DNA from: a virus
IMG/VR virus record: IMGVR_UViG_3300033571_016047
Span: 1 to 21,202 of that record
Length of the DNA: 21,202 nt
Reading direction: 5' to 3' (one strand)
The stretch's first letter is position 1. Each line of letters begins with the position of its first letter. Below are positions 86 to 21,202 of the stretch, in pieces. Both the position numbers and the translations under genes were made by a program. Under the pieces are notes generated by a model. It was given only the letters and a program-made list of their open reading frames with translations. It had not been told where the DNA came from and searched no databases.

Positions 86-1273
86 TTACCTTATTATAAC
101 AATAGCCTCTACTGTACCATCACCGTCAGTATTTTTGTCAGCCAATGCTCTTCCTATAGTGTTAAATGCTGTTGCTTCATCTTTTTTAGCTGCTCTAGCA
201 TATCCCTCACCTGCACTAACTAAACGTTGTCCTTTATTTACTTTACCTTTTACTTTTACTTGCACTCTACCACTTACAGCTACAGGTGGATGTGTTTTGT
301 CATCGCCTGCATTTGCATTCATTAAGTATGCTGCACTATCACTAACAACGCCGAAAACGTCATCACTAAGTTCATATTTTACCATAGTGATTTCTTTTTC
401 ACCACCTAATTGCACAACGGTACCTGCATCGTATGCACTATCGCTTTCAAATCGTTCTGCTAAGTCAGCATAAGTTGCTTGCAACCTAGAACCGGCCGTC
501 AATGTCCAATTACCAGTAATGTTACCTGCTGTAGTATTTGCACCTGTAGTAATAGTTGTTGTATTAGTGGTTCCTAATGTAGCTGTTCCTGTAACTGCCA
601 ATGAACTTAATGTACCAACACTAGTAATATTAGGTTGAGCATTAGTAGCAATTGTACCATATAATAAGTTAGCGACAATACTACCATCACCTGTTCGCAA
701 AACTATTGTTGCCGCGGTTGCTGAACTTGAACTATTATAGCCATCAAGAAAGTCAGCGTTTGTTGCTTGCAAACTAGAACCGGGGGTCAATGTCCAATTA
801 CCAGTAATGTTACCTGCTGTAGTATTTGCACCTGTAGTAATAGTTGTTATTGTGGCGCTAGTATTAACAGTTAAGAAATTTGTTGAGATTGCATTAGCAT
901 TCGAGTTATTAACTGCCGTTATGTTGTTGGCAGATAAATTACCTGTAACAGTTAAATTACCAAATGTTGTGTTAGATCCGCTAGAAGCTAATGTTATCCA
1001 ATTTGCTGCATTACTTTCATATTGAGTTGGGCAAATTTTCATAATACCAGGAGTTGTGCTTGTATCAAACCACAACTGACCTTTTAAAGGATTAGGAGGA
1101 GGGGTAGTGTCTGCAAAGTTTTCTGTTATATGAACAAAGTTTGTATCTAAACTGTTTCCATATCCAGCATAGTTTCTTCCTGGAAGTCCAAGTGAAGTAC
1201 TTGTGGTGTTTATAGTACCGTCTGCAATGGTAGTAAGTACAGTACCATCACTTTTGACAATTGTGTAAGCCAT
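86..1273 (-). CDS. Tail-fibre-like protein with internal duplication (395 aa)
   Basis: Probably a host-binding appendage subunit. Residues about 28-72 (LPGRNYAGYGNSLDTNFVH, then NPLKGQLWFDTST) resemble the N-terminal region seen in fibre proteins of T4-like cyanophages, likely the virion-attachment end. Residues 100-265 are low-complexity Thr/Asn/Ser/Gly repeats typical of trimeric fibre shafts, including QPNITSVGTLSSLAVTG at 213-229. A 30-residue unit (ITTGANTTAGNITGNWTLT...) occurs at 145-174 and again at 241-270. The first copy runs into ADFLDGYNSSS, the second into YADLAERFESD. The C-terminal domain (268-395), with ADLAERFESD, AYLMNA, GRVQVKVKGKV and a final GTVEAIVIIR, matches a terminal domain widespread in marine phage fibres. 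The start is preceded by GGAG 9 bases upstream and by a late-promoter-like GATAAATA. Whether it is a long, short or neck fibre cannot be told. Confidence 0.82.
   Translation of the reverse strand: MAYTIVKSDGTVLTTIADGTINTTSTSLGLPGRNYAGYGNSLDTNFVHITENFADTTPPPNPLKGQLWFDTSTTPGIMKICPTQYESNAANWITLASSGSNTTFGNLTVTGNLSANNITAVNNSNANAISTNFLTVNTSATITTITTGANTTAGNITGNWTLTPGSSLQATNADFLDGYNSSSSATAATIVLRTGDGSIVANLLYGTIATNAQPNITSVGTLSSLAVTGTATLGTTNTTTITTGANTTAGNITGNWTLTAGSRLQATYADLAERFESDSAYDAGTVVQLGGEKEITMVKYELSDDVFGVVSDSAAYLMNANAGDDKTHPPVAVSGRVQVKVKGKVNKGQRLVSAGEGYARAAKKDEATAFNTIGRALADKNTDGDGTVEAIVIIR
89..93 (-). promoter_or_regulatory. Ribosome binding site for the partial gene at 81
   Basis: Minus-strand TAAGG lies 7 bases before the ATG at 81 and overlaps the last codons of the upstream 395-aa gene. 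It fixes the start of the partial gene and suggests translation of the two genes is linked. Confidence 0.5.
474..560. repeat. 87-bp direct repeat, copy 1 (inside the fibre gene)
   Basis: Bases 474-560 match 762-848 at a fixed offset of 288 bases (96 codons), with about 3 mismatches by eye. The repeat encodes the ITTGANTTAGNITGNWTLT unit, and this copy leads into the YADLAERF terminal domain. It is in frame, so recombination between copies would delete or duplicate exactly 96 residues. Confidence 0.9.
762..848. repeat. 87-bp direct repeat, copy 2 (inside the fibre gene)
   Basis: Partner of the repeat at 474-560. This copy encodes residues 145-173 of the fibre protein and leads into an ADFLDGYNSSS segment instead of YADLAERF, so the same unit is joined to two different downstream modules. 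Confidence 0.9.
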
Positions 1274-1300: not shown

Positions 1301-1921
1301 TTAAATTGTAACTAAATTAGTTAAGGATTGTATACGCACGGTATAGTCTATTTGAATTTGTCTATTCAATGACTTTTGCACTGGGTGAAAAATAACATGC
1401 GTTAAAAGTCTTGTAATAACATTTCCATTATCATCGGTTCCATAATTAGCCAATAATCCCAACTCGTCAAAAATAAAGCTTGAATCGGTTTGTGTGCTAT
1501 TATCAAATGCAGCTTGTCCTGCAGGCTCACCGTAATCTAATAAACATTGAACTAATATGTCTGTATAAACACGCCCTGCTGTATGCAAAACTGTCATTTT
1601 ATTACGTGTAGGGTCGAGGTTGAAAACACTCGTATCATCTACAACTTTTTCGTAAGTTTGATTATATAAAGCAGCATTTTGGCCAGTGGTGTTTGGTGGA
1701 AGATAGGTAATTACACCTGTTTCGTTCACACTTGCACCGCCGTTTCCAAAAGCCATTTGATAAATTTCTCCATAGCCACGACTACTTAGCGTATCTGCGA
1801 TAGCTATTGACATGTTTTCATAGTTGATAGCATTCTTTTTATCTACAAATACTTCACCCGTATTTGGATCATAGATTTTAAGAAATCCATCAACTTTATA
1901 AGATAGTGTTACCACAGACAT
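1301..1921 (-). CDS. Conserved phage virion protein, possibly baseplate or fibre connector (206 aa)
   Basis: I recognise the type (AFGNGG-containing proteins in the structural clusters of marine T4-like phages) but not an assigned function. The N-terminus carries GFLKIYDPNTGEVFVDKKNA (12-31), then INYENMSIAIADTL and EIYQMAFGNGGA at about 53-64. The C-terminus (HVIFHPVQKSLNRQIQIDYTV) looks like beta strands. There is no signal peptide or membrane segment. The ATG shares one base with the stop of the 51-aa ORF upstream (TAATG), so it is probably translated by reinitiation. The gene order gp25-gp6-giant-this protein puts it roughly in the T4 gp8 slot, and a distant relation to gp8 is possible but unproved. 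A link between fibre and baseplate is an inference from its neighbours only. Confidence 0.7.
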   Translation of the reverse strand: MSVVTLSYKVDGFLKIYDPNTGEVFVDKKNAINYENMSIAIADTLSSRGYGEIYQMAFGNGGASVNETGVITYLPPNTTGQNAALYNQTYEKVVDDTSVFNLDPTRNKMTVLHTAGRVYTDILVQCLLDYGEPAGQAAFDNSTQTDSSFIFDELGLLANYGTDDNGNVITRLLTHVIFHPVQKSLNRQIQIDYTVRIQSLTNLVTI

Positions 1922-2091: not shown

Positions 2092-5000
2092 TTAGGTTAT
2101 GTCACGTTTTAGGAATAATGCAGGCTGTGTTGTACTTAATTGCAATGGATCCCCTAAAGTTGGATTAAGGTTGTCAGAATTCCAAGTTTTATTGTAGTCT
2201 ACATTTGACAACATATTATTGGGTAATAAACCATATACCTCTGTGTATTTTGGAATTATTGATTGTTTTCCTGTACCATTAGCCCCACGTTGTAAACCTA
2301 TTAATGTATTATTTACTGTATCTACGCCAGAGAATACAATTTGTTCACCATTTAATAGTATCGTGTTTCCTTCTATAACTGTAATTTGTAGCACATCGCC
2401 AGCAGAAATATAAGGACCAACTGCAATTTTTAACACGGGTGCTAGCATTTCAATTACAACTTTATAATTAGAATCTGGTACAAACAAGCCTGTATTAGTG
2501 TTATATACCTTCACACTAACAATTGCTTCTTTATTAGCGGTTAATCCTATATCATAAAACCCAGATATAGGGGGTATTAATGGAGTTATATATGTTTGTA
2601 CATGCGTATCTGTTACACTATTAACATCATTCAAATAAATTATATCTTGTGTATCATTTAATGTTTCTGTTAGCCATGTTCTAGAAAGTGCGTTTGATCG
2701 ATATACCTGTGCTATACCAGATTGATTAACCAAATTGATGTATAGTTCTTCATTTGGTGTAGCAGTAGGAATCATGCTTGTAATTATAACTTCATCGGTA
2801 TTTGTTATAGTAGATAATATGCTTAACTCATTAATTTCATTTAATCTGAGGGATGATGATGGAACTCTGTACCCATTAATTGTTACCCATAATCTATCTA
2901 CATTTTCTTGTTTCCACTGACTTACATCAGAGGTTCCTACTACTGTACTTAAAACTAATACATTTCCATAACGTTCTTCACTGACAGTAAATTTTGTTAC
3001 GCTAGTAATGGTTTTTATAAAATATTCGGTACCAGCAACTAATTCAGCCAAATCTTGACTAAAATATATAGGAGTACCTTCTACTAAACCACTGGTTGAA
3101 GTTACAGAAATTGTATTATCAATAGATGAAGTTTGGTTTGCCTGTGTAGTAGCGACGACAAATAATCCTTCTTCCCATACATATCCACCTGATAGGTAAC
3201 TATTGCATTGAGTTATTGGATAGTTAATAGCTCCCGGTAAAGCACTGTATGGTAGTGAATACAAATCAAAGACAGTAGGAGAAATTATATTAACATAAAA
3301 AGTTTGATTATTAAGTTGTGTTGAACCTAAAACTCCATCTATTTTGATTGGTGTGCTGCCACCAATCAAATTATGATTTATTCCTGTTGTTACACGTACA
3401 GCAGGTTGTAATGATGTTATTAAATTATCTACATTTACGATGTTTGCAACAGTTACACCAGTTAAACCTGATTGTGTATTCAAATATTGACGTTGGGTAG
3501 AATTAAAAGTTGTAACAGCTATTGAACTATTAGCAATTGGAGCGGACACAAATGTAATATTTTCTAAAACACTGTTTATATTGTATGATGTTAAACTTTG
3601 CCTTACACCATCAATTTCAACTATAGCGTTTTGACTGTTAGTTCCCCCTACATAGTTATCCAAAGTAAATGGACCAACTGTACCGTCAGCAGTTATTAAT
3701 TGTGTTTCCGGTATCGTGTATGCGAATTGTTCAGGTTCTGTCTCGCCAAATAATGTATATGTCAAATAATCGACACTTGTATCATAAGTGGCTGATAAAA
3801 TAATTTTTGCAGATATACCATTTGGTTGTAGTCCAAAAGTATAATCAACACCATAAACTAATTTATTACCATTATAGTATAATACTGGATCAGTCCATGG
3901 TTGATTTGTGTCTGGATTTATTATTCCATTGCCATTAAATCTATAAGCAATATAGTTACAATTTACATAAATTTCTTGTAACCCGGTTGTATCATTTGTT
4001 CTTAATGGATCTATTTTAGTACTTGATTTAACTAACTGATCACCATTACCTATTTCATAAATATCTATTCTAATTTTGTCTGTGTCAGTAACAGAGACAA
4101 AGTTAAGTGGATCACTTGTGTTAACCAGTGTTATTGTATTGTTAATCCAATTTACAGTATAATCAATAGTTTCATATAAACTTGTGCTTAAGCCAGTTGT
4201 TTTGTTAATTTGAAATACTGCTAGTTGTTGTGGGACATCAAGAATTTTATCAAAACTAAATGTATATTGAGTTATTGTTTCTGGTATTAGTTCGATAGAC
4301 TTAACCATGTATCCAACACCTGCATATTCTACTGCTGGCCAATTGGTTCCGGGACGAGTTGTTACAATCATAGATAAATTATCTTCAACTATACCTGCAA
4401 CTAATTCTTCAGGGGCATATCCTGATAAGAACGTACCACCCTGAACATCATATGTTGTAGGTCCTGATGGTGTACCCTGCAATATAGTATCTATCGTGAA
4501 TTGTTGTTCTGGATCAAAACTATTACCTTTATATGTAGTGTTTGGATATGTTATTCCTGTAAATAACTGTGATAAATCAACACCTGGCATGTTATCAGTT
4601 GGTTTATAATATCCTATTACACGATCCATAGCATTTAATCTACGGTCACCACTGTCTAGTAATTGCCATTTGTCAAACATAAATTCATTGTCACTATTGC
4701 TGATAATACACAAATAAACACGATTGTTAAATTTGACTATACTTGGATTAAAATAGAATGGCTCCGGTAAAAATGCGCTAGCAAAAGCAGGATTAAAATC
4801 ATCATAACTTACAGGTACTTGTAATAATGGGTCAGAATATAATTCAAAATTTGTTTGTGTTATTGCTTTAATATAAAATTTTTCGCTTACACCAGTGCCT
4901 ATAATAGGTGAAGCGTAAAAAGTAACTTGTTGCCCGTTAATTTGTCCAGTACTTGGATATGGTTCTATTATAGAAGCAACACCTGTACCCGATCCAATAC

Positions 5001-6225
5001 CAGTAGCAATAAATGTAACACCAACCGTATTACTTGCTGCTCCTATTAATGTAAAATCTGTTGTGCCTATACTTAATATTTTATAAGTTTTGCCAATTAT
5101 AAATGAACCAGCTGTTCTTGGTGTTCCAAGATAATACAAAGTAACTATTGTATTATTATTATTGCTACAATTAAAAATATCCGTAATTTCAAAAACTAAA
5201 CCTTGACTACTTGCCAATATAGATGTTATTGAACTTGGTAATGATGAGCTTGCAAAACGTTCACTGGCGTTTACATAAGTGCCGGCATAAAAAGTTAATG
5301 CCTGATCAAACAATGTATCATCATAACATGTTGTATCATACCCAACTGAATTTGGGCCCCAATCAATAACTTGAGAGGTATAAGAAGTTCTATCGAATCG
5401 CAAAGTAATGTTGTTTTCTCTGACAGGGCTTGAAGTTGTAATTGCATTTGCCCTTGCACCTAAACTAAATGAATAATCAGTTCCAGTACCAGCATCATAA
5501 ATTTTAACTCTATGCTCATCATTAATACAATCTTTGTAGGTTGTATAAAGTGCTATTATTACTACAGGACCGGCTGATAAAAGATTTACATAATAGTATT
5601 GATTGTTAACTAGACCACCAATTATGTCATTATTTATTCCCTGATGATATTGAACTAAATCTCCAGTTTGCAATTCTGGTGCATAGAGTTGTATAGTATT
5701 CAGATTAGTATTAACATTACTACCATTAAAATATATTGTAAATGCTGGATCTACAATTATTTCAGGTGTAGACAAATATCCTTTTCCTGGATTAATAACA
5801 TTAATAGAAAATACCGAATCCAATGCCATTACTGCTTCTAATTGAGCAGGTTCGTCTGGCCCCACATATTGTGTAATTGTAATTGGCATTGGTGTAGAAG
5901 GTGTTTGACTTACATTATATGTTCCATCAAGATTGCTTGATAAAATTTGCGTGTAAGGTAAAATACCTTCGCCATCAATATAATTTCCTATTATGACAGC
6001 GCCAAAATTAACTGTTCCAATAGTAAGTACATTGTTAATAATGGTGCCTGTATAGCTAGAAGTTTTACTAAGTTCTGGATTTACATATGCAATTACTTTC
6101 GGTGGTTCTGTGTATCCTCTTCCACCATCTAATAGTAATACTGGTGGCAAATCTATGTAAATATTTTCACCTGGTATGTGATCAGTTACTTCGGTACCAT
6201 TTACTCCGCGTGTTAATCCATATAG
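2092..6225 (-). other. C-terminal string of repeated small beta modules in the giant protein
   Basis: Residues about 3550-4927 contain several recurring units. RGVNGT (3556) and RGANGT (4863) each follow a GNE/NGE-I segment. Glycine-rich GGRGYTEPP (about 3583) and NPGKGYLSTPE (about 3692) are two copies of one unit. Units of the type H-N-L...I-x-I...N-N-x-x-F-Y-V...F-x-L-Y (for example 4493-4544) recall modules annotated as ubiquitin-activating E1 FCCH domains in other phage tail proteins. GKTYKILSIGTTDFTLIGA (3928) begins a unit common in marine phages. Several units have the form NG...Y...I...G..I.I. Boundaries are approximate and the copies diverged, so no DNA-level repeat remains. Confidence 0.6.
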
Positions 6226-9200
6226 TATGTTAAGGGACTGGTCAACATCTGCGTAACCTATCGATTCATTACCTATACGTACTGTACCATTGATTGGGAA
6301 TCCGGCTGCATTGTCTACTACTATAAATAATGCGCTAGTTGACAAATATGTTGCCAAAATACTAATTTGATAATTGTCTTGACCAACAATACTTAAACCA
6401 AAATTATTGTACCATTGACTATAGTTATTGTTAGACCAAATACTATTTGATGGTAAATATTGTGCATCTTGTGGATTACTATAAACTAGTTGTGGTGTAA
6501 TAAATTGTTCTGTGTTTTGATTATAATTTGCAGGCAAATCAAAGTCAGTTATATCACCCTCATATAATTCACTACCAGTATAGGTAAATAGAAAATCTTT
6601 AACTACAACGTGGTATGGTTTTGTTTCATTGATATATCCCTGCAAGAAGTCTTGATTGTCACTTACAAATGTTTCATATGGTAATAATTCACGTATTTTG
6701 TGATTGACATCAATTAATGAAGTTTTATTTAACCATGGCAAATAGTTTTGATTTTCGATTGTTTCAGTCTGAATATACTCAAACAATAATATTAATCCTT
6801 TATTTCTAAAAATTAACAAGTCTTGAACAAAAATTTGCTCATTTAATGCTCTGAGTATATATCGTGTTTCTTCACTAGGGTAAGTGTCATATGGTGTAGT
6901 ATCAAAGAAATTATCACCATAACCCAATCTAGCTGATTGATAGTCATATAGGTCTGATTTGATACGTATTGTTCCGTTTTGTAAACCTATTCTAGTCCAT
7001 AAGTTATCTTGACCATATCTATAGGTTTCTGATTTTCCTACTGAATTTGTAGCAACCGTAACAATTGTACCGGCTGGAACTTGTAACTTAGATAAGTCTG
7101 CATATAAAGGAACTTGTAATGCCGATTTAGTATTATCATCATAACCGACTGCCCACCAGTTTATATATTCCCAATATTGTGTTGTATCGTAAAACAATTC
7201 AACTGGTCCTAACCATTCTGAATTACCAACAGTAGATGGATTAATAGTTCCTTCTTTGAATAAAAAGTCTATGTTAGGAACTAATTCAACGATTGGGAAC
7301 TGGCTCATGACCTCATTTGCAAACATTAAGTAATTTTTAAGTGCGGTGAAACGGTCATAGAAGAAGCTTTGTCTTGGTCGTGCTAAAACGCCAGACTGTA
7401 CTGCTTTTGGTAAATATGGATTAGGTACTATTGCACCTAACTCGTCCACTCCAGATAAACTATCTAGTAATCTGTCATACAAATATTCTGGCTTATCGAT
7501 AAATGTTTGATTATATCTGCCAGGGAGACCAGGTAAGAAATCATCAGCATAGTTTTCTCTTATCAAGGTATATTCATTGTGAACTATATCGTTATTATTA
7601 TTCAAGCTATAACCAATATGTAACACTGTATCAGTGTCATTAATCATTTCTCCACCGTTGTATATACCAAACACATTAGGTAACAATGGTGACAAATAAC
7701 TTATACCTGAATTTTTTGGATTCCTAATATATTGTTCAATTATTGAATCTGCTAAGGTTTTTCCACGCTTGGTAAAAATAATGTTACTGTTTCTTACCCA
7801 GAAATAATATATAGGTGTTACAATGTTACTTGCATTTAATATAGGTTTAACTGAAAATAAATTAATGTCATAAGGTATGCCGGGACCTTCATAAGCACTA
7901 GGTGCAACTGTGCTACTTATCCAAGTATACACAGCAACATCACTACCAGGGAAAATTGTACCCCAATATTCACTGTTGTACACAACGTCATCATTTTGAT
8001 GGTAATTTACCCAACGTATATTAGTTGTATCTAACCATATAGAACCTACTTTTTCGCTACCCCAAGTTAATCTACGTTGTTCTTGGAAACCATTGTTATA
8101 ATCGGCGGGATCAAAATTACTGATAACATCTATATTTTGTCTAACTGCTCCTAATAATTTACCCTGCAATGGATCAAAATAATCAAGATTTACAAGTGTA
8201 TTATTTGTTTCTGCGCTAAACAGTTGTGTATTTTGAATTTTATTAACATCAACAATTGGTGCTGAATATCTTAACACTGACCAATCTTTTATTCCAACAC
8301 TGTTTTCATAGACAACTACTTGACCATCTATTGCCTCAGGTCTAAAGTTTGGTGCACCAATTATTACCTTGTTATTATTAAAGTCTAAAGTTTGTCCATA
8401 AAGAGGTTGTGAACCATATTCTAGATTATTAGCGTTTACACTTTGAGCATATATAAAGTTGCCTGGATTACTCAAATCTTCCTGGTAGTTTTGAATATAA
8501 TCAAACATATAAACACTACCAGCGTTTACAAAAGTATCAATAAATTGTGTACTGTTATTATCAAATATTGTGTCGTTGGTATAATCAATATCGTCAGTAA
8601 AATCAAATGTGGTATTTGTATATCGTGTACCCACTGGCGCTGAAATAACTACAGAATCAAATTCATTAAAGTTAATTGTTGATCCAAATTGTGTCGCACC
8701 AGTTACATGCGGACATAAAATTACTTGCGTATTATTATAAATCTCAAAACCCAATTCAATTAATGTGCTAATATCCGGGGCAGTTATATTTAATTTTTTA
8801 TGTGGGACTGCTAATTGACTATCAATGATAGAAATAGTCAACAAGTTATCAACACTAATAGCTTGGATATTAGATATGTTACTTGAATTAATAATATTAG
8901 CTGCTGCTGTTGCATTACCTGCAGGTAAAGTTACATTGTAACCGTTAATTAGTAATTGTCTTGTTGTAGTTACATTAACTTCACTGGTGCTTGTTATTTT
9001 GCCGAATTTGCAACCTACATTAGTATATCTATAAGCTGCACCTTCTTGTAAACGTTGTCCTGTTAATTCAAGCGGTGCACCAATTAATACTTCATCTGCT
9101 TGCGTTGTGCAATCTAATGCATATCCAAATTGTTTTCCAACTTTAGGATCAGTATTTGTTATTAACACTTGCATTTTAACATAGGTACTGTCAGTAAATT

Positions 9201-12200
9201 TAATTATTTGTCCTGCAGTCAACAATCCTATATAAGATAATTGATTACCCACAACACTATATTCAGTATTAGCTACTAACACCCCATCAACAGTTACGCT
9301 GAAGGGGCCAATTGGTGTCCATGCTATTGTAAATACTTGCGGAACTAATGTAGTTGAATTTGTTTGAACTTCAAAATTTTGTGTATTTCTAGAATAGACG
9401 ATAGTACTACCATTATTTTCAATATCTACACTAAAATCAACAAATGGTATACCAACAAACAAAGTACTTCCGTCATAATCTGTGGCTAATGAATATCCAA
9501 ACCCATCACCTAATATAACTTCGTCATCTATTTCAGCTATAAATTGGTAAGTAGAAAGTGTATTCAATCGTGAATAAACGTGTATTTTGTTATGTAATGA
9601 ATCTTTTCCGGTTACATACAAATAGTTGCCGTCACCGCTTATGGCTAATTGCGTGCCGTATTCAGTAAATCCAACTGGTGCAGTAATAGCACTTTGATAC
9701 AATGTTAAATCATTACTTAAAGCTGTGTCATTTAGCAAATAGATATAAATTTTAGGTGTGGCGCTAGTTGGTTGACTAATAACAAAAATATTATCTGAAT
9801 GTGCAATTACTTGTCCATAACTGGTGTCATCACCTGATAATGTTTGTGTTAATTCATATTGTTTTGCTAGTGCATTAAATGTATAACGATATACTTGACC
9901 TATTACAGAATCACCTATCAAGTAACCAAGTTTTTCTCCGGTAGCAACTGCACTACCAAACTTTTCGGAACCTGCTTTTGTAAATTCATTTTGATATTTG
10001 TAGTTTATTTTTTTATTATAAACAGCCCATGAACCATCTGTATTAGTATCTACCCACACTTTATTTTGACTAAATTCGGTATTTAATAAAGGTAAGTTAA
10101 TTATGTCACTAGGTTTAGTAACTCTATTTGATTGGAAAATAAGAGCTATACCTTGACCCACAACCTCTTTGGTCGATGATGGTAATATTAGGTTAATAAT
10201 TACTTTATACTGATCAATGATTGTAGATACAAGATAATATCCATTAACGTTTGCATTTAAGTTAATGATACTGAATATCTGATATTGTGTTAAATTATGT
10301 GGTTGTGCAAAAGTAACTGTGCAAGTATTATTTGTATTTGCCCTGACGCTAGTAACTTGTCCAATACTATATGGCGTCATTACTTGCCAATTTTCTAAAT
10401 AATTAGCCAACCATACATAATCGCCTACGTAAAAATTATCTATTGTTACTATATTACCGCTTTTATTAACTGCTGTGGCCAAACCAGAATAAAAATACGA
10501 TGACATTTTCACATCGTTGTAATTTACATATCCAGCGTCAGGTAATAACTTTTCTTGATTAATATAATGAATAGTTGGTAAAATATTAGGATTATTTATA
10601 GGTTTAGCATAGTTAAACAGTGAATAAATTGGTACTTCTTGTTGTACCCCTTCATTAAAGTCGCCATTAGTTAAACCAACAATACTTGGGTTACCAGTCA
10701 ACAATGATTCATTTAATCTAAACTCAACAAAATTGTCGTTTTCAACACCGCCGTATGTGCTTGATTTAATAGCCCAATTTTCATAAACTTCGTAATCAAT
10801 ACCACCTTGCGGCAATCTTGCACCCCTAAATGCGCTTACTGAGTTTCTAGTACCCTTTTCTTTGATAAAGTTTTTGTAAACATTTATTTGTGTTATATCA
10901 GTTAAATCTGCAAGCGCCAAATAATCTCTTGGTCTATAACCAATCAAGCTAAAGCTTAACAAATCAGCATCTTGTTCAAGATTGGCCTTATTTGTATTGT
11001 AATACAATGTTGATTCATAACTACGTGTGCTTGAGTTGGGTAGTAAACCTTTTTGAATTTCATTGTAATCGGTTTGTTTCCATTCAAGTTCATTAAATTT
11101 GTTTTGTGGTTGAACTATTTTGAGAGCAGTCCAATATTTGTTTTTATACTTGACTATTGCGCCCTTTGTATACTTGAAATCTTTTTGCCATTCTTGTATA
11201 TTATCTTGGTTAAGAATAAATCCATAAGCATTTAATGTACCGTTCCATTCGTCGGTTTTAGTTCCTCTAGTATAAATTCTTAGTTGTCTTAATCCCGTAA
11301 TTAAATTATATATTACATCATTGAATAATGTAATATTATCAAATACAATTCCATGCTCAATATTGCTAATGTAGAACTGCCCAAATGAAATTGTATCCCC
11401 TTCATTTAATGCGTCAACATTAAAGAAATTATTATCTCTTGTAATAGCTAAGTCATTGAGTTGTATAGGATACAAGTTTTGATTTAACAAAAAGTTTTGT
11501 TGCTGCACTAGTAATGGTTGAACAACATATCCAGGTTGTTCAACGGAAAGATTTTTAGCAGCAGGGTTAAGTGTAATGACGCTGCCTGTTTCCCAACCCA
11601 ATTGCACCCAATATAAAAACTCAGCAATCATTTGTTGCCAAGTTACTGGTACACCATTTTCAATTTCTTCAAATTTTAATCCTTTGGCAACTAACCAACC
11701 ATTGTAGTTAGAAATAAATTGACTTACTTCTTGTACGCTATTAAATGTGGTGCCATAAGGAACTACTTGTTCTGTTGGTAAATAATTTTCGTATATTGAA
11801 ACTTCTATATCTTCTACTTGTATATTTTTTTTGTTTTTACTATAATCAGGTAACAATGTAGTAAAATATGCATTTGTTTGATTATTACCAAACACTGCAT
11901 ACTTGTCACCTACTATTTGAACAATAACACTACTAAAAGTTATTTTGTCAAATGGTGTATTTTCATATAGTAATACACTATAGCTTTCATCAGGAATTAA
12001 CAATGAAGCATTATTAGAATTAGGTGTACCTTTTTCTACATAAAACTTTAGTATATTTTTGTCTGTAAATCCTGCTACTCTATAAACTAATCTTACATCC
12101 AAATTGAAAAGCAAATCTTTTATATTTTTTGTTGCGTCAATACCTATTTGTTTTTGATAATCAACAATCCAGTTTATATAACTTGTTTTTGGTGTTCCAG

Positions 12201-15200
12201 ATCCATAGATTTCTACATTGTCAATAATTAAATGTGATCTGTCGTTCACTAGATACTGATTAAATTCTGCGTTATATCTGTAATTGTCTAAGTCAACAGC
12301 TAAATTATAAAACTTGGCAGGCTCACATAATGCAAGAATTTTTACTAAATCAAATGGATATGAACTGCTTCTTCTATAGCTTAACTCTACTGGACCATCG
12401 TCACCTATTGTCCAATTTTTTCTAAATGTATTACTATTGTAATTACCAACGATAACATCTAATGGTGATAACAACTTACCACTACTATCTACTGGAATGA
12501 TATCTAATAATTGTGGTCTTACATATTGTGGTCTTACAACGCCTTTACCGGTCAATGGGTCTATAACTCCCCAATCTTCTCCCTTAGACAAATCAGTCCA
12601 AAGTATTAAGTTATCTTTAGTGTATGGGGCCGAACCATATCTATCAGTCCACCAATCAGGCATTGATGTATAACCTATCATTTCCCATGGACTTGTATTT
12701 GGATTTGAAGTATCATAGAAATATGAATAAATTCCTCTCCAATTACCTTGTTGTATTGGTAATGATGTTAATTTATCTCCTGAGTTTTTATAGTTAAATG
12801 TAAACTGGTCGTACGGGCTGTATAATTGATTTTTATATTCTAGTCTGTTTTCGCCTATCCAATTTAAGAAGTTTACTGAATATATTTGTAAAATTTCGTC
12901 ATAAGAATAATCAGTTGTTCTAAAATATCCAGGAATAATATCTGTCATAGGCAATGGCAATTGTTCTGGTAATTTTAAGTTGTTATAGATACGTTGTTCA
13001 AACTCTAATAATGCCTGATCCCTAAAATCAACTAATAAACCTGTTGTTGGATTATAATCGCCATACAATCTTGTGTAAGAACCATCGTGCCCTAATATAA
13101 AATATGTTGGTTGTAGATAGTTTGGATCTAAAATAACTTGTGGTAAATATGAGGGATACAAGCCCAACTTAGTTGGGGTGTTGGGTACATATGATCCATA
13201 TGTTTGATTATATTGTTTTACAGTAATTCTATCACCAGCTACCAAATCTTTAGTTACTGTAACAGTTGGATTTGTAGTACTAATTGTATAATCAACATTT
13301 TTTATTAGTTGTTCTGTTACAATCGTTCCACCTATCAAAGTAGTTCTATATACTAAAACACTATCGTAATTTGCTGAGTTAAAGTTATATACTTTTAATA
13401 AAGGATAAATTGTAACATCCATGCCATTTCTAAATGTATATGTATTAGTTACAAAAGCAGATTTTGATGGTAACATGTCACTCCAAAAGAATGACTGTTC
13501 TTGTGTTTTACTTGAAGTAATTTGATCTAATGCATTATCTAACACAAGTGCTGGATCATACTGTTGCAAATAATTTGTTTTAGCTACTGTATCAATTAAT
13601 ACTGACTTAAACTTAATATACTCACGACTATTAAACAACAATGCATTAAATAGGTTATTATTTGGCTGTCTTAAAAATGCGCCAGGTAATGCTAATGAAG
13701 CACTGTTTTGTATTATTTTATTACCATATGGAACTAAATTACCTAAATCTCTAAAATTGTTAGAACCAAATACTTCACCAACTGTGTTTGGCGCATTGAT
13801 AAACATACTTTGATATTGACCACGTATGTCCCCAACATTTGCAGTTGTAATGTCCCCATTAAATGGATTATTATTCAAGTTTATAGGAATCTGATAATAA
13901 GCTGTCTTACTAACTTGATTGCTCAAAACTAATATTTCAATTACTGTAGGAACAACTGGCGTGTTATTAAGTGTTACAGTAGTACTATTTGCATTTGTAG
14001 TAAATGTAAATTCATCAGTGGGTAATAAATTATTGTTAATAAAAACAAAAATGTTAGGCCATTGTGTGGTTGTATATGCAGAAACATCGCAAACAAATGT
14101 AGGGGCATCAGTCAATGGATCATAATTAAAATTAAAAATTTGATATTGGACGCTAGGTGAAATTGCTGTTTGCCAACCTATACCTCTTATATAACTTATT
14201 CTATCAAAATATGTTTGAACATAGCCTGTATTGACTGATTGAGTAATTGGACTAGTTGAACTTACATATGTAAAGGTGTCACTATTTAATGATATATCAA
14301 AACTAATATCGCCTAAATTGCTAACTGAACTATAACGCAATGGAAATCCCAAAACAGGATCGTCTGGACCTGAACCCAAACCATAATTAAATAATTTACA
14401 ACCCTTAAAGGATGAGCCTACATAAACTGATTCATCACCAAAGCTTATACCGTTTTTATCAAAAACATCAAATAGTGGTGCTTGATTTACTGTAACTTTT
14501 AATTGCGCCTTTATCCAATCCAATCCATTATAATAAAAAGTGTCGCCTTGATAATTATATCCACGTATTATAGCAACTTGGTCGTTAAATAACGCTTCGC
14601 CATCTTTAGCTTCTGTTAATGTAATTACAGGGGTAGATCCTACAGTTAAACTTTCAAAGTTTACAACATATATTTTTTTTCTAACGTTGGTATTAGTGTC
14701 ATTTGCAAAAATAATTCTGCTACCAGGGAACACAGAAAAATTATTAGTGTTTGTGTCACTAGCAACAATAGAAGCGGTTGATGTTCCTGCAATAGTTGCA
14801 GGGGAAGACCATTCTACAGTTAATGTAATTGTTGATGTTCCTGATATAGAAGTAATAATACTGTTATTTGGTAGTTGATTTGTAGTGTCATCAATATATT
14901 GACCTACTTGAAATTTACCAGTTATATCCGATTCTAAAATTTGAATGGTTGTCGATGTGCCAGCAATCAACAATGGTGCTATTGTAGCATTTGCAGTTGT
15001 GTAAACTTCAATATCAGGATAATAAGATTCTTCTCCCACTACTTGATTAAATGCATCCGTTGTTCTAAAATCTATAAAATCAACTGAATTTTTACCCACC
15101 GTACCTGAATTGAACAACTTAATATTTGGATAAAATTCTATGATTGGACGTTTTGCCTTTGCTGATGCAGGAGCATATTCTAAAACTATTTCTGGATTGT

Positions 15201-16875
15201 TATTATAAATTGCAGTAGCGTTAATTACATCTATGTGAAACCAACGATTACTTCTAGACCAAGCATTTTTATTAATACTATTACGTGCAATAGTTATATA
15301 ATCAGGAGTTACTGGTATAAACAAATTACTATCATAATTTCCTATGTCATATGATGATGTATCATAGGGGATAAAAAAACCAGAAGTAAAATCTTCAGGA
15401 CAAATAAAATCTTCTACGTTTAATAATTCGATACTTGTACCAACACCCTGAACATAATATTCGCCTTGTAAATAGCTACTTGGAATAACGTCTCCATCAA
15501 AACTTACTTTAAGTCCATTAGTAAACACTACACCATTTTTTGATGTAAAATTCTTTTTACCTAATATTTCAGTTTCTACATTAAGTGTATTTGTTAGATT
15601 GCTATCTATCAGATTAATAATACCAACTTTAGTACTTGATGTACCATCCTGATAATAAAGTGTATCTAATAATGAACTCAAATATGGAATTTTTTGAATA
15701 TTTCCTGCTGTGTTTTTGAAAAAGTGTAACCCAGCATATGTTTCGCCAAAGTTTGCTGTAATCTTTTCATTGTTAGGGATCAAACTGGCTGGCAACAATA
15801 TAACAAATGGGTCAGACGGATTGCCGGGATTATTAAAAAATGTTACTGTGTAAAAATAATCACGAACATTTGTAATATAAAGATCAGTATCATAAGCCAA
15901 ACTCAAAGAAAGTTGATCTTGATCAAATTGTTGTAAATCATACGAACCCAAATTAGCTTGTTCGTTAGCAACCCCTGTATTATAAAATAATACAGTTAAC
16001 CCTTCTATATTTGTCACACCATCTATACCGCCACCTGCAACAATTTGACTTAATGTTAAACCACTTATGTTAGAGTAAGCATTTGAACTTACTATGTCAA
16101 CTAGGTTGTTGCCGGGCAAATCAAATTCGTCTTGTGCATCCTTAAATGGTACTGTAAATGTTACGACCCCACTTGTTGCACCATTGTTTGACACACCTAA
16201 TACTTCTCTAGTTTGTTGATTTGGTTGTAGTGGGTCAAATCCAGTTACTCCCGGTACTCCCTGTATCCAAAATTGTGAATCTTGGTCTACTATAAAATTA
16301 TATGTTCCGCCACGCAGTAATGTTAATGTAGGATTTATAGAACCAGATTGTGTTCCTACTACACGTATATTGTAACCATTAGTTTGATCTGTAACAATAT
16401 AATCGTTGTTACTAAAAACAGTATCACTGGCGACGGTGACACTAGGCGGACCTTCAGGCAACCAATAATACTGATTGAAGTTAATTAGTTTATCTAAATC
16501 AGCAAACGAATCCCATGAATAAAATTGACTATTAAAAAGCCTGTTATTGTTATCTGTTATACCATTGTTTAATTTTAACGCATCAATTATGCCCGGGTAT
16601 GAAATAAAATCTTTGGCAACTGATTCGTTTGGTTTTGTAAATACAACTCCAGGTTCAAGTTGATAATCTGTTCTAGTTTTTGTAGGTTCGGTAACATAAT
16701 AATTTTTACCATTAATACCATAACCAAATTTGCTACCTATATAACCTTCTATTTTTTTAGTATTAGGCGGGTTTACAATTTGGTCTAGAGTCGCACCTAA
16801 AAACTGTCTGTTAGTAGGAGTTTGAAATATTTCTGGTAAAAAATCAATTGTACGAATTCTGTTGCCGATTGCCAT
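2092..16875 (-). CDS. Giant multidomain phage structural protein with FG-GAP propeller (4927 aa)
   Basis: One uninterrupted frame of 14.8 kb, probably a virion protein of the baseplate or tail tip. The N-terminus (RIRTIDFLPEIFQTPTNRQF, IEGYIGSKFGYG, TRTDYQLEPGVVFTK, INFNQYYWLPEGPP; about 7-145) matches large uncharacterised structural proteins of T4-like marine phages as I recall them. Further parts: a cupredoxin-like stretch (about 182-247), a conserved YNGLDWIKAQLKVTVNQAP block (about 790), a Trp/Tyr-rich core (about 1320-1680; MPDWWTDRYG near 1405), a carbohydrate-binding-like segment (1896-1935), an FG-GAP propeller (2306 to about 2870), a second conserved core (about 3230-3435; EYINWWAVGYDD, SLIDVNHKIRELLP, GYINETKPYH), then small beta modules to the C-terminus. 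About 14 Cys in total; no signal peptide or membrane segment. It follows gp6, where T4 has gp7 (1032 aa), but I see no direct gp7 similarity. The start has GAG 6 bases upstream, and the gap to the gp6 stop is 29 bases. Confidence 0.9.
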   Translation of the reverse strand: MAIGNRIRTIDFLPEIFQTPTNRQFLGATLDQIVNPPNTKKIEGYIGSKFGYGINGKNYYVTEPTKTRTDYQLEPGVVFTKPNESVAKDFISYPGIIDALKLNNGITDNNNRLFNSQFYSWDSFADLDKLINFNQYYWLPEGPPSVTVASDTVFSNNDYIVTDQTNGYNIRVVGTQSGSINPTLTLLRGGTYNFIVDQDSQFWIQGVPGVTGFDPLQPNQQTREVLGVSNNGATSGVVTFTVPFKDAQDEFDLPGNNLVDIVSSNAYSNISGLTLSQIVAGGGIDGVTNIEGLTVLFYNTGVANEQANLGSYDLQQFDQDQLSLSLAYDTDLYITNVRDYFYTVTFFNNPGNPSDPFVILLPASLIPNNEKITANFGETYAGLHFFKNTAGNIQKIPYLSSLLDTLYYQDGTSSTKVGIINLIDSNLTNTLNVETEILGKKNFTSKNGVVFTNGLKVSFDGDVIPSSYLQGEYYVQGVGTSIELLNVEDFICPEDFTSGFFIPYDTSSYDIGNYDSNLFIPVTPDYITIARNSINKNAWSRSNRWFHIDVINATAIYNNNPEIVLEYAPASAKAKRPIIEFYPNIKLFNSGTVGKNSVDFIDFRTTDAFNQVVGEESYYPDIEVYTTANATIAPLLIAGTSTTIQILESDITGKFQVGQYIDDTTNQLPNNSIITSISGTSTITLTVEWSSPATIAGTSTASIVASDTNTNNFSVFPGSRIIFANDTNTNVRKKIYVVNFESLTVGSTPVITLTEAKDGEALFNDQVAIIRGYNYQGDTFYYNGLDWIKAQLKVTVNQAPLFDVFDKNGISFGDESVYVGSSFKGCKLFNYGLGSGPDDPVLGFPLRYSSVSNLGDISFDISLNSDTFTYVSSTSPITQSVNTGYVQTYFDRISYIRGIGWQTAISPSVQYQIFNFNYDPLTDAPTFVCDVSAYTTTQWPNIFVFINNNLLPTDEFTFTTNANSTTVTLNNTPVVPTVIEILVLSNQVSKTAYYQIPINLNNNPFNGDITTANVGDIRGQYQSMFINAPNTVGEVFGSNNFRDLGNLVPYGNKIIQNSASLALPGAFLRQPNNNLFNALLFNSREYIKFKSVLIDTVAKTNYLQQYDPALVLDNALDQITSSKTQEQSFFWSDMLPSKSAFVTNTYTFRNGMDVTIYPLLKVYNFNSANYDSVLVYRTTLIGGTIVTEQLIKNVDYTISTTNPTVTVTKDLVAGDRITVKQYNQTYGSYVPNTPTKLGLYPSYLPQVILDPNYLQPTYFILGHDGSYTRLYGDYNPTTGLLVDFRDQALLEFEQRIYNNLKLPEQLPLPMTDIIPGYFRTTDYSYDEILQIYSVNFLNWIGENRLEYKNQLYSPYDQFTFNYKNSGDKLTSLPIQQGNWRGIYSYFYDTSNPNTSPWEMIGYTSMPDWWTDRYGSAPYTKDNLILWTDLSKGEDWGVIDPLTGKGVVRPQYVRPQLLDIIPVDSSGKLLSPLDVIVGNYNSNTFRKNWTIGDDGPVELSYRRSSSYPFDLVKILALCEPAKFYNLAVDLDNYRYNAEFNQYLVNDRSHLIIDNVEIYGSGTPKTSYINWIVDYQKQIGIDATKNIKDLLFNLDVRLVYRVAGFTDKNILKFYVEKGTPNSNNASLLIPDESYSVLLYENTPFDKITFSSVIVQIVGDKYAVFGNNQTNAYFTTLLPDYSKNKKNIQVEDIEVSIYENYLPTEQVVPYGTTFNSVQEVSQFISNYNGWLVAKGLKFEEIENGVPVTWQQMIAEFLYWVQLGWETGSVITLNPAAKNLSVEQPGYVVQPLLVQQQNFLLNQNLYPIQLNDLAITRDNNFFNVDALNEGDTISFGQFYISNIEHGIVFDNITLFNDVIYNLITGLRQLRIYTRGTKTDEWNGTLNAYGFILNQDNIQEWQKDFKYTKGAIVKYKNKYWTALKIVQPQNKFNELEWKQTDYNEIQKGLLPNSSTRSYESTLYYNTNKANLEQDADLLSFSLIGYRPRDYLALADLTDITQINVYKNFIKEKGTRNSVSAFRGARLPQGGIDYEVYENWAIKSSTYGGVENDNFVEFRLNESLLTGNPSIVGLTNGDFNEGVQQEVPIYSLFNYAKPINNPNILPTIHYINQEKLLPDAGYVNYNDVKMSSYFYSGLATAVNKSGNIVTIDNFYVGDYVWLANYLENWQVMTPYSIGQVTSVRANTNNTCTVTFAQPHNLTQYQIFSIINLNANVNGYYLVSTIIDQYKVIINLILPSSTKEVVGQGIALIFQSNRVTKPSDIINLPLLNTEFSQNKVWVDTNTDGSWAVYNKKINYKYQNEFTKAGSEKFGSAVATGEKLGYLIGDSVIGQVYRYTFNALAKQYELTQTLSGDDTSYGQVIAHSDNIFVISQPTSATPKIYIYLLNDTALSNDLTLYQSAITAPVGFTEYGTQLAISGDGNYLYVTGKDSLHNKIHVYSRLNTLSTYQFIAEIDDEVILGDGFGYSLATDYDGSTLFVGIPFVDFSVDIENNGSTIVYSRNTQNFEVQTNSTTLVPQVFTIAWTPIGPFSVTVDGVLVANTEYSVVGNQLSYIGLLTAGQIIKFTDSTYVKMQVLITNTDPKVGKQFGYALDCTTQADEVLIGAPLELTGQRLQEGAAYRYTNVGCKFGKITSTSEVNVTTTRQLLINGYNVTLPAGNATAAANIINSSNISNIQAISVDNLLTISIIDSQLAVPHKKLNITAPDISTLIELGFEIYNNTQVILCPHVTGATQFGSTINFNEFDSVVISAPVGTRYTNTTFDFTDDIDYTNDTIFDNNSTQFIDTFVNAGSVYMFDYIQNYQEDLSNPGNFIYAQSVNANNLEYGSQPLYGQTLDFNNNKVIIGAPNFRPEAIDGQVVVYENSVGIKDWSVLRYSAPIVDVNKIQNTQLFSAETNNTLVNLDYFDPLQGKLLGAVRQNIDVISNFDPADYNNGFQEQRRLTWGSEKVGSIWLDTTNIRWVNYHQNDDVVYNSEYWGTIFPGSDVAVYTWISSTVAPSAYEGPGIPYDINLFSVKPILNASNIVTPIYYFWVRNSNIIFTKRGKTLADSIIEQYIRNPKNSGISYLSPLLPNVFGIYNGGEMINDTDTVLHIGYSLNNNNDIVHNEYTLIRENYADDFLPGLPGRYNQTFIDKPEYLYDRLLDSLSGVDELGAIVPNPYLPKAVQSGVLARPRQSFFYDRFTALKNYLMFANEVMSQFPIVELVPNIDFLFKEGTINPSTVGNSEWLGPVELFYDTTQYWEYINWWAVGYDDNTKSALQVPLYADLSKLQVPAGTIVTVATNSVGKSETYRYGQDNLWTRIGLQNGTIRIKSDLYDYQSARLGYGDNFFDTTPYDTYPSEETRYILRALNEQIFVQDLLIFRNKGLILLFEYIQTETIENQNYLPWLNKTSLIDVNHKIRELLPYETFVSDNQDFLQGYINETKPYHVVVKDFLFTYTGSELYEGDITDFDLPANYNQNTEQFITPQLVYSNPQDAQYLPSNSIWSNNNYSQWYNNFGLSIVGQDNYQISILATYLSTSALFIVVDNAAGFPINGTVRIGNESIGYADVDQSLNILYGLTRGVNGTEVTDHIPGENIYIDLPPVLLLDGGRGYTEPPKVIAYVNPELSKTSSYTGTIINNVLTIGTVNFGAVIIGNYIDGEGILPYTQILSSNLDGTYNVSQTPSTPMPITITQYVGPDEPAQLEAVMALDSVFSINVINPGKGYLSTPEIIVDPAFTIYFNGSNVNTNLNTIQLYAPELQTGDLVQYHQGINNDIIGGLVNNQYYYVNLLSAGPVVIIALYTTYKDCINDEHRVKIYDAGTGTDYSFSLGARANAITTSSPVRENNITLRFDRTSYTSQVIDWGPNSVGYDTTCYDDTLFDQALTFYAGTYVNASERFASSSLPSSITSILASSQGLVFEITDIFNCSNNNNTIVTLYYLGTPRTAGSFIIGKTYKILSIGTTDFTLIGAASNTVGVTFIATGIGSGTGVASIIEPYPSTGQINGQQVTFYASPIIGTGVSEKFYIKAITQTNFELYSDPLLQVPVSYDDFNPAFASAFLPEPFYFNPSIVKFNNRVYLCIISNSDNEFMFDKWQLLDSGDRRLNAMDRVIGYYKPTDNMPGVDLSQLFTGITYPNTTYKGNSFDPEQQFTIDTILQGTPSGPTTYDVQGGTFLSGYAPEELVAGIVEDNLSMIVTTRPGTNWPAVEYAGVGYMVKSIELIPETITQYTFSFDKILDVPQQLAVFQINKTTGLSTSLYETIDYTVNWINNTITLVNTSDPLNFVSVTDTDKIRIDIYEIGNGDQLVKSSTKIDPLRTNDTTGLQEIYVNCNYIAYRFNGNGIINPDTNQPWTDPVLYYNGNKLVYGVDYTFGLQPNGISAKIILSATYDTSVDYLTYTLFGETEPEQFAYTIPETQLITADGTVGPFTLDNYVGGTNSQNAIVEIDGVRQSLTSYNINSVLENITFVSAPIANSSIAVTTFNSTQRQYLNTQSGLTGVTVANIVNVDNLITSLQPAVRVTTGINHNLIGGSTPIKIDGVLGSTQLNNQTFYVNIISPTVFDLYSLPYSALPGAINYPITQCNSYLSGGYVWEEGLFVVATTQANQTSSIDNTISVTSTSGLVEGTPIYFSQDLAELVAGTEYFIKTITSVTKFTVSEERYGNVLVLSTVVGTSDVSQWKQENVDRLWVTINGYRVPSSSLRLNEINELSILSTITNTDEVIITSMIPTATPNEELYINLVNQSGIAQVYRSNALSRTWLTETLNDTQDIIYLNDVNSVTDTHVQTYITPLIPPISGFYDIGLTANKEAIVSVKVYNTNTGLFVPDSNYKVVIEMLAPVLKIAVGPYISAGDVLQITVIEGNTILLNGEQIVFSGVDTVNNTLIGLQRGANGTGKQSIIPKYTEVYGLLPNNMLSNVDYNKTWNSDNLNPTLGDPLQLSTTQPALFLKRDIT
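8250..9975 (-). other. Seven-bladed FG-GAP-type beta-propeller domain (in the giant protein)
   Basis: Seven FG or YG starts, each leading into a hydrophobic strand and often a GAP-like end, fall at residues 2306 (FGSAVAT), 2353 (YGQVIAH), 2406 (YGTQLAISGDG), 2459 (FGYSLATDYDGS...VGIP), 2583 (FGYALDC...IGAP), 2730 (FGSTINF...ISAP) and 2826 (YGQTLDF...IGAP). The first four are 47-53 residues apart, the usual blade length. Later spacings of 124, 147 and 96 imply inserts. Each blade ends in a strand such as GQVYRYT, KIHVYSR, GSTIVYSR, AAYRYT, GSVYMFDY or GQVVVYEN. This is the FG-GAP pattern of integrin-alpha-like propellers, often used for protein or sugar binding. D-x-D-G in blade 4 hints at a calcium loop. 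Confidence 0.78.
11068..11190 (-). other. Carbohydrate-binding-module-like segment in the giant protein
   Basis: Residues 1896-1935 read W-x5-Y-x-K-G-A-I-V-K-Y-K-N-K-Y-W-T-A, then P and W (LEWKQTDY). This spacing resembles CBM5/12 chitin-binding domains (W..., Y..G..V.Y.g..Y.A, ...P...W). It would suit surface-sugar binding. The match is to a short pattern and could be structural mimicry only. Confidence 0.4.
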
Positions 16876-20294: not shown

Positions 20295-20302
20295 TATTTA
20301 TC
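20295..20302 (-). promoter_or_regulatory. T4-type late promoter box (GATAAATA) for gp6
   Basis: Minus-strand GATAAATA in the 50-base gap between gp25 and gp6, 18 bases before the gp6 ATG. A start near 20289 would leave a short leader that includes the AAAGAG ribosome site. It is the same octamer as at 1293 and 2082. Confidence 0.65.
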
Positions 20303-20786: not shown

Positions 20787-20794
20787 TATTTATA
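20787..20794 (-). promoter_or_regulatory. Consensus T4 late promoter box (TATAAATA) before gp25
   Basis: A perfect TATAAATA on the minus strand between the stop of the helical gene and the gp25 ATG. Only CATT separates it from the ATG, too short for a normal leader, so gp25 may be translated from a leaderless or upstream transcript. AAAGGG just before the box is a ribosome site only on read-through RNA, with a long spacer (about 12 bases). Confidence 0.65.
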
Positions 20795-20798
20795 CCCT

Positions 20799-21202
20799 TT
20801 ATTTTGATAATTCTTTTATACGGTCTAGAAGCGCCTTCATTTCTGGGTTAGATAAACTATCGTAATATATTTGTTTCAATTCTTCTATTTTTGGATCACC
20901 GGCTGGTAATTCGTTTTTTGCTGCAATATATGCTTGTTTATGTGCTCGGAGTTTTGGTTCAAGTTTGCTCAATTCATCATATGCATCGCTTAATTGTTTT
21001 TGTTTATCTACATAAGTTTGATACAATTGTTTAGCTGCACTTGAAACTGTTCCTGAATAATTCGGTGCGGGTATACCTTTATCCCCCAATAAATTAGAAA
21101 TTTGGTCTGTAACAGCACCTCTGTTAAATGTATCAGTTGAAACACTAGGCATTTTAATTACAGTTGAGCTTCCCGAACTTAATGAGGTTATAGCAGAAAT
21201 AA
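20799..21202 (-). CDS. Helical virion protein, C-terminal part (partial; conservative start at 21152)
   Basis: Not recognised with certainty. From the ATG at 21152 the frame gives 117 aa: MPSVSTDTFNRG, a flexible NYSG region, then a long amphipathic helix likely to form a coiled coil (about 38-80; QLYQTYVDKQKQLSDAYDEL) and a second helix at 87-117. No Shine-Dalgarno sequence precedes that ATG. The same frame is open upstream to the window edge and reads ISAITSLSSGSSTVIK, which looks coding, so the gene probably begins outside the window and the ATG is internal. The alternative frame ends in TAA one base before the ATG but reads oddly (two Cys in 15 codons). Its place upstream of gp25 suits a baseplate hub, spike or PAAR-type tip protein, and the GSSTV piece is mildly PAAR-like. 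This is inference only. Confidence 0.62.
   Translation of the reverse strand, partial: ISAITSLSSGSSTVIKMPSVSTDTFNRGAVTDQISNLLGDKGIPAPNYSGTVSSAAKQLYQTYVDKQKQLSDAYDELSKLEPKLRAHKQAYIAAKNELPAGDPKIEELKQIYYDSLSNPEMKALLDRIKELSK

Follow-up and report, generated by a model that had tools for sequence, protein, structure and literature searches.

A giant virion protein whose gene directly follows gp25 and gp6 in an uncultured jumbo phage probably acts in the gp7 position of the tail baseplate

The 21,202-base virus record analyzed here in full (IMGVR_UViG_3300033571_016047, hereafter the window) encodes a giant protein whose place is almost certainly the tail baseplate. It probably acts there in the gp7 position, as the third wedge component of a contractile tail, in an uncultured jumbo relative of RaK2, Atu_ph07, and PA5oct. 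This wedge placement is supported by the occupation of the same slot after gp25-gp6, the detection of orthologues by mass spectrometry (MS), the lack of a separate gp7, and the LP and KG motifs, together with membership in PHROG 10938, a beta module shared with cyanophages, and an integrin-like propeller (Z 34). It is weakened by negative profile comparisons, a low-confidence model of the KG segment, the ~2,000-residue spacing between the LP and KG motifs, and the position of the gene in phage SCTP-2. The features of the window are collected in Table 1.

Table 1. Features of the window and the evidence for each; residue numbers refer to the giant protein
Feature	Position	Strand	Evidence
Giant virion structural protein, 4,927 aa	2092..16875	-	ORF, PHROG 10938, purifying selection
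N-terminal block, residues 1-150, conserved in all family members	16426..16875	-	Near-invariant L13-P14, Y71-Q72, W138
Largest conserved family core, residues 1225-2062	10690..13203	-	Common to RaK2, GAP32, PA5oct, SCTP-2, Atu_ph07
CBM5/12 (chitin-binding)-like insert, residues 1892-1938	11062..11202	-	Profile and fold matches to phage proteins
Candidate gp7/gpI-type segment (KG segment), residues 1945-2062	10690..11043	-	Invariant K2007-G2008, then near-invariant W (EEWAF-like); motif-level only
Predicted seven-bladed FG-GAP propeller, integrin-alpha-like, residues 2290-2869	8269..10008	-	Predicted structure and fold search
Propeller blade starts, near residues 2306, 2353, 2406, 2459, 2583, 2730, 2826			
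Second conserved family core after propeller, residues 2886-3460	6496..8220	-	Alignment of relatives, near-invariant columns
Beta module GFPxxGxIxIGxExIxY, residues 3490-3563	6187..6408	-	Common to cyanophage giant gp7
Beta-module string, variable region, residues 3600-4927	2092..6078	-	Last ~600 residues conserved
gp6-like baseplate wedge protein, 1,123 aa	16905..20276	-	Profile matches
gp25-like baseplate wedge protein, 151 aa	20327..20782	-	PF04965 above cut-off
206-aa protein	1301..1921	-	Homologue of PA5oct gp357, Atu_ph07 gp177, Phosso 293, SCTP-2 139
395-aa fibre-like protein with Peptidase_G2 domain	86..1273	-	Profile matches

The giant gene lies on the minus strand, with its ATG at 16875 and its stop ending at 2092, and ORF analysis returned one frame of 4,927 codons without internal stops that takes up 69.7% of the record. 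The length and coordinates given in an earlier sequence-only reading were correct in this respect. Compared with the closest environmental relative (L008, 68% identity in the core), pN/pS was 0.28-0.54 in each 400-codon block, and the protein is therefore under purifying selection over its full length and no chance ORF. Coverage by 14 environmental relatives is good in nearly every 100-residue block, the exception being residues 3601-3700 (covered by 38%). The C-terminus carries the motif TWN..GDPLQ found in the environmental relatives, and the 206-aa gene that comes next also recurs after their giants (72-93% identity). With selection throughout, collinear relatives, and this common end and following gene, a misassembled join, which the sequence-only reading had named among the findings that could overturn it, is excluded in practice. 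That the long frame is an assembly artefact fusing separate genes is thus very improbable: one collinear frame occurs in dozens of independent contigs and seven sequenced phages, which already refutes the gene-joining version, purifying selection runs along the whole protein, and the clade has other members of 4.0-5.3 kaa. What speaks for an artefact is that the giant comes from a short, linear metagenomic record and falls about 1,000-1,800 aa below the length of most close relatives, and for this reason its C-terminal array may contain a collapsed repeat.

By its sequence, the protein falls into a family of giant jumbo-phage virion proteins that is already known, though functionally uncharacterised. 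PHROG 10938 ('virion structural protein') matches it in five stretches (E 3.9e-276), and the members of this family include RaK2 ORF070 (3,326 aa), GAP32_230 (3,341 aa), CBB_236 (3,340 aa), phAPEC6 gp245, PA5oct gp355 (3,857 aa), Atu_ph07 gp180 (4,449 aa), Phosso 294 (4,555 aa), and SCTP-2 140 (3,807 aa). BLASTP against six isolates was collinear across residues 1-3460, with shared cores at residues 1-150, ~500-1100, 1225-2065, and 2865-3460, and near-invariant columns over 26 sequences are concentrated mainly in residues 1-140, 525-600, 770-1090, 1230-2160, and 2900-3450. The window member differs from these isolates in being longer and in having a propeller, a CBM5/12-like insert, and another C-terminal module array. 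Virion association is known for three of the orthologues through the work of others. CBB_236 was found in virions by MS with 21 unique peptides (PMC5259590), as was phAPEC6 gp245 (381.9 kDa, orthologous by size and position) with 17 unique peptides, the latter adjoining the baseplate wedge protein gp244 (PMC7247149). The virion detection of PA5oct gp355 is annotated as ESI-MS/MS. The identification of the window protein as a phage virion structural protein, first made from its neighbors and family resemblance, is borne out by the family assignment and these detections. A literature phrase search on giant phage proteins returned no relevant paper.

Some virion proteins of jumbo phages are processed after translation, and the MS coverage of the orthologues found in virions is low (7.6-7.7%). 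Both would fit a giant that is cut by proteolysis into several virion proteins, leaving no complete 4,927-aa chain in the virion. The frame is intact in all relatives, however, and we regard such processing as improbable.

The gene order of the window is gp25, gp6, giant, 206-aa gene, fibre-like gene, and the position of the giant directly after gp6 is repeated in RaK2, GAP32, CBB, PA5oct, Atu_ph07, and Phosso. Salicola phage SCTP-2 is the exception. There the giant follows other large genes and the linkage is broken, as its gp6 homologue lies ~90 kb away (record 231230-234952). A second giant gene of 3,096 aa is located directly upstream of the SCTP-2 orthologue (L005, 5609-14899). A gene of about 200 aa corresponding to the 206-aa gene is present in four of the isolates (Atu_ph07, Phosso, PA5oct, and SCTP-2), and the first ~71 residues of the 395-aa protein have counterparts in the gene that comes next in Atu_ph07, Phosso, and PA5oct. 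The 395-aa protein (86-1273) combines a virion-protein-like N-terminus with an autoproteolytic Peptidase_G2 domain, and several relatives carry at least two similar copies of its gene in tandem after the 206-aa gene, an arrangement suggestive of a diversifying fibre or adhesin cassette. Upstream of gp25, a 117-aa protein (20799-21152; 133 codons open at the contig edge) had no PHROG match and only sub-threshold Pfam and NCBIfam matches. Octamers resembling T4-type late promoters (TATAAATA/GATAAATA) occur on the minus strand just upstream of gp25 (20787-20794), gp6 (20295-20302), the 206-aa gene (2082-2089), and the 395-aa gene (1293-1300), though over the whole window they are not commoner than expected by chance. 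Such an octamer is found 2-8 bases after the stop of the giant in 16/16 relatives, and none is found inside the giant on the coding strand in 15/16. In the window the giant itself lacks such an octamer, and it probably shares a transcript with gp6.

Synteny places the gp7 slot at the same position in T4, P2, cyanophages, and RaK2-like phages, and the giant shares with T4 gp7, P2 gpI, and pyocin Tri2 a gene located after gp6 (gpJ in P2). Some third wedge subunit should exist in these phages, since conservation of the (gp6)2-gp7 heterotrimer extends to TssF/TssG of type VI secretion (PMC6300606). Profiles of T4 gp7 and of the cyanophage wedge proteins matched nothing in six homologous phage genomes, while the positive controls (T4, P-SSM2, and X1) were all matched. 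An LP pair is near-invariant at the N-terminus of the giant, and K2007-G2008 is the only invariant KG pair of the family, forming KG(T/S) at 2007-2009 with a near-invariant W thereafter. The order LP ... KG(T) is that of P2 gpI and of T4, X1, and cyanophage gp7, and with the addition of EW the pattern resembles P2 gpI. The spacing of the two motifs is ~2,000 residues in the giant versus 80-190 in T4 and cyanophage gp7, and the giant is about five times longer than T4 gp7 and thirty times longer than P2 gpI.

The slot after gp25-gp6 is also occupied by giants in cyanophages (P-SSM2, 5,195 aa; S-PM2, 3,048 aa; S-SSM7, 3,007 aa), where the protein is named gp7 in P-SSM2 and S-SSM7. The P-SSM2 protein (PHROG 2885) has the same gene order, a similar size, a modular build, and one module in common with the window giant. 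It differs in possessing an N-terminal gp7 domain with a T4-like KGxEES segment, of which the window family has no detectable equivalent.

Homology to gp7 is not borne out by profile comparisons. Comparison by hhalign with T4 gp7 gave probabilities below 1% in all 11 segments of the giant. For reference, cyanophage gp7 aligns to T4 gp7 at 91% probability. The Pfam gp7 domains PF21428, PF21427, and PF21456, all three of which match T4 gp7, do not match the giant. PHROG 2885 and PF23786 likewise have no match in the window giant, and PF23786 was silent in six homologous genomes while the P-SSM2 and X1 controls matched. The N-terminal LP aligned in register with the N-termini of gp7, yet no better than 64 control blocks, and profile support for the KG segment as a counterpart of the KG[TI]xxS helix in the wedge domain of T4 gp7 was 4% (P 0.0096). 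The KG segment gave no signal against P2 gpI, in a comparison without power, as the gp7-gpI pair, described as related (PMC6300606), gave none either; Pfam Tail_P2_I matched P2 alone over eleven records. A PHROG scan of the KG segment with E up to 10 returned only its own family and, via the CBM-like insert, tail-fibre families. The AlphaFold model of the KG segment is of low confidence, and T4 gp7, TssG, and Tri2 are not among the matches listed in the fold searches; as those lists are taken up by other domains, this does not show that such a fold is absent. Sequence searches of the PDB, run with the whole giant, the N-terminus, and the propeller block, recovered no baseplate protein. Based on the negative profile and Pfam results and the low-confidence model, the giant is not filed as a gp7 homologue, only as a protein acting in the gp7 position. 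The proposal that it replaces gp7 therefore keeps its footing in the slot, the motifs, and the lack of a T4-type gp7 elsewhere in complete relatives, and loses it in the profile comparisons.

The division into N-terminal and central cores, a propeller, and a string of beta modules, as originally read from the sequence, agrees with the conserved blocks and the predicted fold. An AlphaFold model of residues 2230-3429 (mean pLDDT 79) contains a seven-bladed propeller, predicted with high confidence, at 2290-2868, and seven FG-type blade starts are readable in the sequence. The best fold matches are integrin alpha chains (7usm_A, Z 34.0, 2.5 A over 338 residues, 19% identity), and the best Foldseek match was also an integrin. 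The propeller shares with integrin alpha the seven FG-GAP-type blades, but it is embedded in a phage baseplate-region protein and has no canonical calcium loop (DxDxDGxxD) in residues 2290-2869. Among the matches listed, a propeller HMM matched all environmental relatives examined, down to ~30% identity, and had no match in the giants of Atu_ph07, Phosso, PA5oct, SCTP-2, GAP32, and RaK2, in T4 gp7, or in three cyanophage gp7s, a distribution with which an FG-GAP motif scan agrees. Judged from this distribution, the predicted propeller is an insertion of the window's lineage and the new element here, though FG-GAP proteins occur elsewhere in viruses. A separate Atu_ph07 'hemagglutinin' (BFVD A0A2L0UZX4) has a predicted fold resembling the window propeller, and the propeller may thus be stand-alone in that phage, whose giant lacks one. 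The CBM5/12-like insert aligned with proteins of phages 7-7-1 and Milano (Z 6.8-7.1 over 45-48 residues), and small domains of this kind recur in tail fibre and baseplate proteins of 7-7-1, Milano, and KP1. The GFPxxGxIxIGxExIxY module matched cyanophage gp7 at P 2e-5 to 7e-5.

Environmental relatives, gathered by two scans of viral contigs, have frames of about 4,009-6,800 aa where these are not cut by a contig end, which ranks the window member among the shorter proteins of its close clade. In most of its close relatives about 1,000-1,800 residues are added, chiefly after 3936-4139 and 4323-4489, and much of this extra length consists of further beta-module copies. A module of ~80-90 residues reaches around ten copies in the C-terminal half of the longest relatives (L011, L008, L037, and others). 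Beta-module copy number accounts for much of the 4.0-6.8 kaa length range. The records that carry the relatives reach 244 and 303 kb, which makes the phages of this clade jumbo phages; a viral-contig scan with the PA5oct core found no relatives. The sequence-only reading was right that the protein far exceeds T4 gp7 (1,032 aa), a contrast valid only for T4 itself; the size is not unprecedented, P-SSM2 gp7 being longer. Giant baseplate-region proteins are already known from the cyanophages (3,007-5,195 aa) and from the 6,136-position model of another virion protein family, PHROG 701, and giant size by itself is not new.

Encoded in place of T4 gp7 or P2 gpI, the giant would most likely be present in six copies, one per wedge. 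It would pair with gp6 through its conserved N-terminal and central cores, and these cores most likely join the wedge with gp6 and gp25. The propeller, CBM5/12-like insert, and beta string would project outward to the baseplate periphery where fibres dock, and these outer modules may touch cell-surface glycans or proteins. The unusual appendage or skirt around the baseplate suggested by the sequence-only reading is conjectural. A competing possibility is that the giant is a peripheral appendage of the baseplate or tail (a fibre hub, whisker base, or receptor-binding scaffold) and that a small divergent gp7/gpI-like protein encoded elsewhere completes the wedge. Such an arrangement would accommodate the lack of profile homology to gp7, the presence of modules that adhesive tail parts typically have (the propeller, the CBM5/12-like insert, and the beta modules), and the unusual whiskers and ramified fibres of RaK2-like phages. 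However, profiles detect no gp7 candidate in the homologous genomes, even very divergent phages (SCTP-2 apart) retain the position after gp6, and the feature common to all members is the core and not the adhesive modules. A peripheral appendage is the rather unlikely reading, and a role in the gp7 position remains the preferred one.

Placing this functionally unnamed giant virion protein family in the gp7 slot of the baseplate bears on whether giant wedge proteins replace several T4 parts. Tentatively, and with some doubt on our side, the third wedge protein may have turned giant (4.0-6.8 kaa) in a large uncultured jumbo lineage by fusing wedge function with receptor contact, such that a propeller, a glycan-binding-like insert, and a beta array would be built into the baseplate instead of separate gp8-gp12 type proteins, with the protein of the same slot having become giant independently in cyanophages. 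The predicted integrin-like propeller within a phage baseplate-region protein hints at the site through which phages of this lineage may touch the host.
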